Assembly (NCBI RefSeq): GCF_014202635.1
Contig: NZ_JACHHD010000003.1
Location: 62,001-126,000, forward strand
Source: Faecalicoccus acidiformans
GTDB lineage: Bacteria > Bacillota_I > Bacilli_A > Erysipelotrichales > Erysipelotrichaceae
Length of the DNA: 64,000 nt
Direction: 5' to 3'
In this document: positions 33,605 through 61,821 of the stretch, in pieces
Numbering within the stretch: the stretch's first letter is position 1
How the letters are laid out: each line of letters starts with the position of its first letter
Notes under the pieces: model-generated
Told to the model about the DNA's origin: nothing
The model's input: the letters and a program-made list of their open reading frames with translations, nothing else
Databases searched by the model: none
Made by a program: the position numbers and the translations under genes

Positions 33605-33610
33605 AGAACC

Positions 33611-33832
33611 GTAAAACGTTGAGAAGGATCAGTACATAAATTTTTTATGGTAGAGACGATATGGCTGGTGAAAATATCGATAAAGATTTATGGAATAGCC
33701 CCTTCAAGTGAATCAATGAATTCAGTAGTTGATTCCGGTACATACCGTTATCATGTCAAGAGATCTTATTTGATAAGATAAGAAGGGTGGCAACGCGAGA
33801 CATCGTCCCTTTGTGGTACATGTCTCTTTTTT
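33611..33832 (+). ncRNA. T-box riboswitch upstream of serS
   Basis: The leader contains the T-box sequence AAGGGTGGCAACGCG (33783-33797) and then a terminator built on GAGACAT ... ATGTCTC followed by T6 (to about 33832). Upstream is a long imperfect Stem I with paired GGTACATACC-like segments. Uncharged tRNA-Ser is expected to bind and favour the antiterminator. TCC at 33734-33736 is a possible serine specifier, but I could not fold Stem I with certainty. Boundaries are approximate. Confidence 0.93.
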
Positions 33833-35169: not shown

Positions 35170-35197
35170 TTGAAAACCAAATTTCATATGATATAAT
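35170..35197 (+). promoter_or_regulatory. Promoter of the SRP RNA gene
   Basis: TTGAAA (35170-35175), 16-bp spacer, TATAAT (35192-35197). The spacer contains TCATATGA (35184-35191), the same octamer that is repeated upstream of the HTH/coiled-coil gene. Confidence 0.85.
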
Positions 35198-35202
35198 GAA
35201 AA

Positions 35203-35289
35203 AGCTACTACAATGATGTCAAATGAATCAGGTCAGGTCGGGAACGAAGCAGCCTTAAGTTTGCTCCATCATGTGTAGTAGTTTTTTTT
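35203..35289 (+). ncRNA. ffs: Signal recognition particle RNA, small 4.5S type
   Basis: About 80 nt folded as one long hairpin. The ends GCTACTACA and TGTAGTAG pair. The conserved apical domain reads GGTCAGGTCGGGAACGAAGC followed by AGCC, matching the Ffh-binding helix 8 loops (GGTCAGGTCCGGAAGGAAGC-type). It ends in TTTTTTTT. No Alu-type 5' domain, so it is the short form, unlike the long 6S-like scRNA of Bacillus subtilis. Confidence 0.95.
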
Positions 35290-35293
35290 GTGG

Positions 35294-35299
35294 TAAAAT
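35294..35299 (+). promoter_or_regulatory. Extended -10 element of tadA
   Basis: TGTGG followed by TAAAAT, 6 nt before the tadA ATG and just after the T-run of the SRP RNA terminator. No Shine-Dalgarno fits in this space. Confidence 0.55.
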
Positions 35300-61148: not shown

Positions 61149-61206
61149 AATGTGCAAAGGGAAATAAAAAATGCACATTGTATTGTTCTGAAACTTCATG
61201 TAAAAT
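61149..61206 (+). promoter_or_regulatory. Promoter of purE with inverted repeat
   Basis: TTGTAT (61178-61183), 17-bp spacer, TAAAAT (61201-61206). Just upstream and overlapping the -35 is a perfect inverted repeat AATGTGCA (61149-61156) / TGCACATT (61172-61179), which could be a repressor site or a weak terminator of the preceding gene. Confidence 0.65.
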
Positions 61207-61240
61207 AGCGGTGCAGGAAGTTTTTTTGGAGGTCTTACTT

Positions 61241-61297
61241 ATGGTCTTAAGAAGATTTACAAAACTGAAGAACATGGACTGTTTTAAGCGTGCCTAG
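61241..61297 (+). CDS. Possible 18-residue leader peptide of the pur operon
   Basis: ATG-started ORF with a strong ribosome binding site (GGAGG, 8 nt before). Encodes MVLRRFTKLKNMDCFKRA and stops in the loop of the following terminator. Lies about 27 nt after the predicted start of transcription. Looks like an attenuator peptide; the trigger is unknown. Confidence 0.5.
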   Translation: MVLRRFTKLKNMDCFKRA

Positions 61298-61313
61298 ATG
61301 GGACGCTTTTTTT
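61286..61313 (+). terminator. Terminator/attenuator upstream of purE
   Basis: AAGCGT-G-CC-TAGATG-GG-ACGCTT with one bulge, followed by seven T. It stands between the promoter and purE, so transcription must read through to express purE and purL. Confidence 0.82.
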
Positions 61314-61335
61314 AATGAAAGAGAGGATGACAGGT

Positions 61336-61821
61336 ATGAAAAAACGTGTTTTGATCGTGATGGGATCACGCAGTGATCTTCCCAGCATGGAAGGCTGCAT
61401 GAAGCAGCTGGATGATTTTGGAGTGGATTATTCGGTTCGTGTATTGAGTGCACATCGCACGCCTAACGAAGTGATCGAATTAAGCAAGAATGCCGTGGAT
61501 AACGGAATTCAGGTAATTATTGCCGCTGCCGGAGGAGCTGCTCATTTGGCGGGAGTGCTGGCAAGTTCAACCCCATTACCGGTCATTGGAATTCCGATCC
61601 AGACCAGCGCATTAGGAGGATTGGATTCTTTGTTGTCTACAGTGCAGATGCCGCAGGGAGTACCTGTCGCTACGGTTGCCATTGGCAAAGCCGGTGCTCG
61701 TAATGCAGCGATTTTGGCTTGTCAGATGATGGGGCTGGCAGATCCGGATCTTCAACAAAAAATCGTTGATTTTAAAAAGGCGCAGGCTGAAAAAGTATTG
61801 GCAGATTCTGTAGTAGAGTAG
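61336..61821 (+). CDS. purE: 5-(carboxyamino)imidazole ribonucleotide mutase
   Basis: 161 residues. Class I PurE: VLIVMGSRSDLPSMEGCMK at the N-terminus, LSAHRTPNEVIE, AAGGAAHLAGVLAS and GIPIQTSALGGLDSLLS. Converts N5-CAIR to CAIR in purine synthesis. The ATG at 61336 lies after GAGAGGATGACAGGT. Separated from purL by 9 nt; a purK gene is not seen here. Confidence 0.96.
   Translation: MKKRVLIVMGSRSDLPSMEGCMKQLDDFGVDYSVRVLSAHRTPNEVIELSKNAVDNGIQVIIAAAGGAAHLAGVLASSTPLPVIGIPIQTSALGGLDSLLSTVQMPQGVPVATVAIGKAGARNAAILACQMMGLADPDLQQKIVDFKKAQAEKVLADSVVE

Follow-up and report, generated by a model that had tools for sequence, protein, structure and literature searches.

A conserved leader ahead of purE in Erysipelotrichaceae: a start-codon hairpin, a short open reading frame and a terminator as a possible attenuator of purine synthesis

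Short leader open reading frames that run into intrinsic terminators have been described ahead of several bacterial genes. In Escherichia coli, the leader ORF of the nucleotide biosynthesis operon pyrBI (pyrL) holds no regulatory codons; pausing couples the polymerase and the ribosome there (PMC4824070), and a U-rich stretch makes the polymerase sensitive to UTP (PMC3641672). The tlrB (yxjB) leader of Bacillus subtilis responds to tylosin by stalling at an RYR motif that ends its peptide, and has a hairpin that sequesters a Shine-Dalgarno (SD) sequence. A NusG-dependent pause lets the leader ribosome prevent termination there (PMC6851288). NusG of B. subtilis pauses polymerase at the motif TTNTTT (PMC12288461). 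In the mgtCBR leader of Salmonella, the peptide of the mgtM ORF is not conserved and its coupling to polymerase responds to ATP (PMC3641672), high ATP inducing, with conserved adenines and alternative stem-loops. The Streptococcus fthC uORF motif (Narunsky et al. 2024, PMC11109978) combines hairpins, the SD and AUG of an upstream ORF (uORF), a stop codon in a hairpin and a terminator with a gene related to one-carbon metabolism, and the rate of initiation has been suggested as the sensed step (PMC11109978).

The leader described here precedes purE in Faecalicoccus acidiformans, within a window of 64,000 nucleotides of contig NZ_JACHHD010000003.1. Like pyrBI, it has a short leader ORF without regulatory codons that runs into the terminator of a nucleotide biosynthesis operon, and coupling between ribosome and polymerase would decide the outcome; unlike pyrBI, it lacks an evident purine-specific tract, its hairpin encloses the start codon, and the genes that follow are for purines rather than pyrimidines. 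It shares with tlrB a Bacillota leader ORF followed by a terminator, and NusG-dependent pausing may act on it as well, but its uORF has no conserved stalling motif and its hairpin lies at its own start codon instead of sequestering an SD. In layout it is like the fthC motif; gene and lineage differ, and the AUG is placed between two stems in fthC but inside the loop in the purE leader. With mgtM it has in common an unconserved leader peptide, whereas the conserved adenines and the alternative stem-loops of that system were not found in the purE leader, and the sign of that system is the opposite of the one expected here. The guanine riboswitch RF00167 sits in the same purE leaders of relatives, in tandem with the uORF unit; it is missing from this genome, and the uORF unit, which has a terminator to itself, is distinct from it. 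Membership of the pyrBI or tlrB kind would rest on steps that are themselves predicted.

Table 1. Features of the purE leader in the window.
Feature	Position	Strand	Description	Basis
Promoter	61178..61206	+	-35 TTGTAT 61178-61183, 17-nt spacer, -10 TAAAAT 61201-61206	sequence
Transcription start	~61212-61214	+	predicted	inferred from promoter
Shine-Dalgarno of leader ORF	61228..61232	+	GGAGG, 8 nt 5' of AUG	near-invariant in family alignment
Start-codon hairpin	61231..61257	+	61231-61241 (A61237 bulged) pairs with 61248-61257; hexaloop UGGUCU 61242-61247	covariation, RNAalifold
Leader ORF (uORF)	61241..61297	+	ATG 61241, 18 sense codons MVLRRFTKLKNMDCFKRA, TAG 61295-61297	
T-rich tract	61279..61285	+	CTGTTTT, directly 5' of terminator; 5/6 match to NusG pause motif TTNTTT	
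Intrinsic terminator	61286..61313	+	hairpin AAGCGTgCCtagatGGgACGCTT 61286-61308, -11.6 kcal/mol; seven T 61307-61313	
purE	61336..61821	+	ATG 61336	TIGR01162, E=7e-59

The gene order of the operon is purE-purL-purM-purN-purH: purL comes directly after purE (TIGR01857), and purM, purN and purH are named by their recognisable protein starts. The initial annotation had listed a promoter, a strong ribosome binding site, an 18-codon ORF, a stop codon inside the terminator loop, seven T and purE, and every one of these is present in the sequence (Table 1). It also placed five basic residues near the end of the peptide; there are six, scattered along its length. From the predicted transcription start, RNA polymerase would set out ∼28 nt 5' of the uORF, and a T run lies between the promoter and the SD. 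The TTGTAT-TAAAAT pair falls below the threshold of a consensus promoter scan and is absent from its output; the TCATGTAAAAT promoter context recurs in the leaders of six relatives (L002, L003, L010, L011, L013 and L015). Between an upstream glutamine-amidotransferase-like gene and the promoter there is an inverted repeat, ATGTGCA...TGCACAT (61150-61178), which was considered as an operator and set aside, being conserved in neither L002 nor L003. The same arrangement of SD and uORF, with the stop at a terminator just 5' of a gene, has four candidates besides purE on both strands of ∼460 kb of the genome: one is the 3' end of rpsO, two are without a plausible leader context and the fourth is ambiguous.

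The best-supported part of the leader is a covarying hairpin at the start codon, which the initial annotation overlooked together with the T-rich tract. The upstream regions of purE in the family have GGAGGTCTTACTTATGGTCTTAAGAAGAT in common, and 21 distinct family sequences form a 10-pair stem closed by the hexaloop UGGUCU; the uORF start codon contributes its A to the loop-closing pair and its U and G to the loop itself. The stem covaries across ∼20 genera, with both-sided changes in 6 of the 10 pairs, so that variants such as CTTA/TAAG, GTTA/TAAC, AAAGTTA/TAACTTT and ACGAA/TTCGT are built around one loop. The loop is nearly invariant (G, U and C in 21/21, the last U in 20/21), and the Val codon in the hairpin is GTC in all 21 sequences. 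Stem cells are paired in 87.1% of cases against 74.2% in shuffles, the covariation score of 0.304 (0.108 shuffled) was reached by none of 500 shuffles, and slid registers of the stem are all far worse than the actual one. RNAalifold recovers the same helix; run on 12 full leaders, it returned the start hairpin and the terminator only, with no conserved antiterminator hairpin. The hairpin is weak, at about -6 to -9 kcal/mol. Three family leaders (L014, L016 and L017) retain it with quite different loops.

A covariance model of this hairpin, run over 273 genomes of the family, gave one strong match each (E < 5e-4) in 36 Erysipelotrichaceae genomes, a count that excludes one match of similar E inside another gene. 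All 33 of the strong matches that were checked lie upstream of purE. Conservation of the leader in relatives was also looked at directly, and the arrangement, terminator included, is kept across the family. A scan of 392 genomes of the phylum with the model gave no convincing match outside the family; 11 weak matches outside the clade were inspected and rejected as true copies, all of them lying inside or beside unrelated genes. The leader had no match in a plasmid collection and none above the gathering score in Rfam, where only chance-level matches appeared at E up to 10, and no purE leader peptide or uORF was found described in the literature searched. The leader is real, conserved, outside Rfam and without a published description that we could find. 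In the neighbouring family (L166-L182), no leader is seen ahead of purE. The gene lies there mostly directly 3' of one resembling fhs (formate-tetrahydrofolate ligase).

Distant genera of the family have an unrelated peptide and start hairpin, yet most carry a short ORF with an SD that ends at a terminator. The start-codon hairpin itself is not general among them (mean z +0.17 in 30 leaders). Where a non-redundant leader has both such an ORF and a terminator that was detected, the frame runs open as far as the terminator in every case (46/46); with shuffled spacers the mean was 18.5 and the maximum 29 in 1000 trials. The comparison may be biased towards open frames among the distant leaders, whose start codons were chosen by eye on the strength of SD and frame. 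The stop codon falls within -16 to +20 nt of the base of the terminator hairpin in 42 of the 46 (shuffles: mean 15.1, maximum 25), and in most leaders a stop comes sooner in the other two frames. In the window's own clade, where the hairpin fixes the start, the frame is open in 22/22. The distance from uORF start to terminator stays at 42-60 nt despite the unrelated peptides, and no conservation of the peptide beyond the hairpin was found in the relatives compared. The loop of L014 carries a one-base shift that moves the conserved 3' arm into a different reading frame, and that frame too runs open as far as the terminator loop. This shift, the unrelated peptides and the open frames together point the same way: what selection appears to maintain is the RNA structure, the open frame and the spacing, and not the leader peptide.

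No run or enrichment of a regulatory codon was found in the family uORFs (Gly makes up about 1% and Gln 2-4% of leader residues), which bears out the initial annotation on this point, and an amino-acid attenuator of the trp or his type was rejected for want of a run of the relevant codon. The uORFs show no evident tract specific for A or G (A makes up 0.36 and G 0.15 of their composition), so that purine specificity, as far as the uORF sequences tell, is not written in the leader.

Ahead of the terminator, a T-rich tract is enriched. TTTT occurs near the hairpin base in 13/18 clade leaders versus 19/137 gene-end terminators (p=5e-7), and [TC]TNTTT in 11/18 versus 6/137 (p=1.4e-8), in exploratory tests devised after the sequences had been seen. 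The exact TTNTTT is present in only 5/18 clade leaders, and L010, L011, L013, L014, L023, L024 and most distant genera have a weak tract or none. NusG of the window's genome has an RNTPGV segment, which holds the N81/T82 residues used by B. subtilis NusG at TTNTTT pauses. The tract is pause-like, and polymerase may pause there.

The position of the uORF stop codon is less telling than it looks. The initial annotation had reasoned that a stop placed in the terminator loop brings the hairpin under the control of ribosome position; as argued, this is not supported, since such overlap is routine in this genome. In ∼440 kb (L146-L164 and the window), the median distance from stop codon to terminator start is 2 nt over 137 gene-end terminators, which often overlap the stop, and stop-terminator overlap alone is not diagnostic because ordinary genes show it too. 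Stop codons overlapping terminators are a published sign of polymerase outrunning ribosomes (PMC7858274), and their frequency here is a sign that transcription and translation may be uncoupled in this lineage. Since a stop in a terminator is ordinary here, something would have to help a ribosome arrive at the leader terminator early enough, and the T-rich tract is a candidate for this. Work in E. coli found that a ribosome at a stop codon a few nucleotides from a terminator represses it, and that translation repressed a terminator lying within 100 nt of the start of an ORF by only ∼10% (PMC4824070).

The window's genome has no match to the purine riboswitch RF00167 and none to the PurR_N domain (PF09182), in agreement with the initial annotation, which saw neither a PurR nor a purine riboswitch motif. 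In relatives, PurR was rejected as a candidate, PF09182 matches being almost all within ORFs of ∼600-700 aa, too long for PurR. The purE leaders of many relatives have a purine (guanine) riboswitch in tandem with the uORF-terminator unit, in either order: the riboswitch is 5' of the uORF in L020, L023, L025, L028 and L029, and 3' of it in most of L073-L078, L081, L085, L088, L090-L097, L100 and L102. This arrangement in series suggests a two-input gate. In two leaders of one genus of the family, a ZMP/ZTP riboswitch takes the place of the purine riboswitch and lies directly ahead of purE (L101 292-368, L103 291-367).

Since relatives keep the layout of the leader while the peptide changes, the leader very probably acts as an on/off switch for purine synthesis that has not been described before. 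How it would work is a matter for more caution. The preferred reading, to which we give a little less than an even chance, is a ribosome-dependent transcription attenuator of the purine operon that needs no regulatory codon and follows the logic of pyrBI and tlrB. An attenuator with a leader ORF was also what the initial annotation raised as a possibility, and it stands as the best reading, supported by the frame open in every one of the 46 leaders. Behind it are the covariation of the hairpin, the open uORF at narrow spacing, the enriched T tract, the exclusive link to purE and the absence of another purine regulator among those searched for. The rest we infer: a uORF that is translated, a polymerase that pauses, a ribosome that prevents termination, and a signal, with its sign, that comes from purine nucleotides. 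The weak hairpin, with the uORF start codon in its loop, would slow initiation and set a threshold, while polymerase would slow at the T-rich tract just 5' of the terminator. A ribosome at the end of the uORF by then would sit on the terminator's 5' arm, and polymerase would continue into purE; if no ribosome were there in time, the terminator would form. Purine shortage (low GTP/ATP) would slow polymerase and increase read-through, much as UTP shortage does at E. coli pyrBI, which is the sign expected of feedback. Against such an attenuator, ribosomes may rarely get to the leader terminator soon enough when polymerase runs ahead; also counted against it are the slight effect of translation on the early E. 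coli terminator, the uORFs without an evident A- or G-specific tract, the start hairpin that is not general in distant genera and the T tract that is missing or weak in many leaders.

The conservation of the hexaloop hints that something reads it, and the main rival to ribosome-dependent attenuation takes up this point. On this view a trans-acting factor, be it a small RNA, a ligand or an RNA-binding protein that responds to purines, would bind the UGGUCU-loop hairpin and lock or open the uORF start, with uORF translation then setting termination and the loop kept because the factor reads it. A loop that hardly changes while its stem varies is what such a factor would leave behind, and the constant GTC at the Val codon argues for a constraint on nucleotides and not on amino acids. 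Yet L014, L016 and L017 keep the hairpin with other loops, a metabolite aptamer of just 10 bp and a 6-nt loop would be a small one, and no candidate factor was found. We regard this explanation as unlikely.

Somewhat more improbable is that the uORF reports the capacity for translation initiation, through fMet-tRNA (and hence 10-formyl-THF) or through GTP versus (p)ppGpp on IF2, tying purine synthesis to translation or one-carbon supply and not to purine pools. The start site alone is elaborated, with no conserved codon after it; a similar idea has been put forward for the Streptococcus fthC uORF motif (PMC11109978), and two family leaders have at the equivalent place a ZTP riboswitch, which reads formyl-folate shortage. 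The predicted sign, however, with poor initiation giving less purine synthesis, is not that of classical feedback, and the leader holds nothing specific for fMet or GTP. We judge it just as improbable that the ribosome has no part in control, the terminator being passive or under ordinary factors and the overlap with the uORF stop the normal look of short units in an uncoupled genome. That overlap is indeed the rule in this genome, but the covarying start hairpin, the narrow spacing from start to terminator with an open frame across genera with unrelated peptides, the T tract and the strict purE link would all be left unexplained.

A bolder proposal, which we consider doubtful, is that the leader represents an RNA switch of a new class. 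Its start-codon hairpin, recognised by way of the UGGUCU loop, would gate translation of a dispensable peptide and so turn a purine-related signal (a nucleotide, fMet-tRNA/formyl-folate or an RNA-binding regulator) into termination; often it would be joined in series to a guanine riboswitch, the two forming a two-input gate. If leader-based control is borne out, a family of gut bacteria apparently without PurR, and here also without purine riboswitches, would have its own control of purine synthesis, whose sensor would be translation of a short ORF with a peptide that does not matter. A working leader-ORF attenuator in a genome that looks uncoupled would test how ribosomes control a terminator when polymerase runs ahead, and the series with guanine riboswitches in relatives would offer a natural two-input gate for study. 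Elsewhere in the window, Rfam matches mark a T-box leader (33610-33813), a small SRP RNA (35197-35294) and, on the - strand, a glmS ribozyme (451-598).
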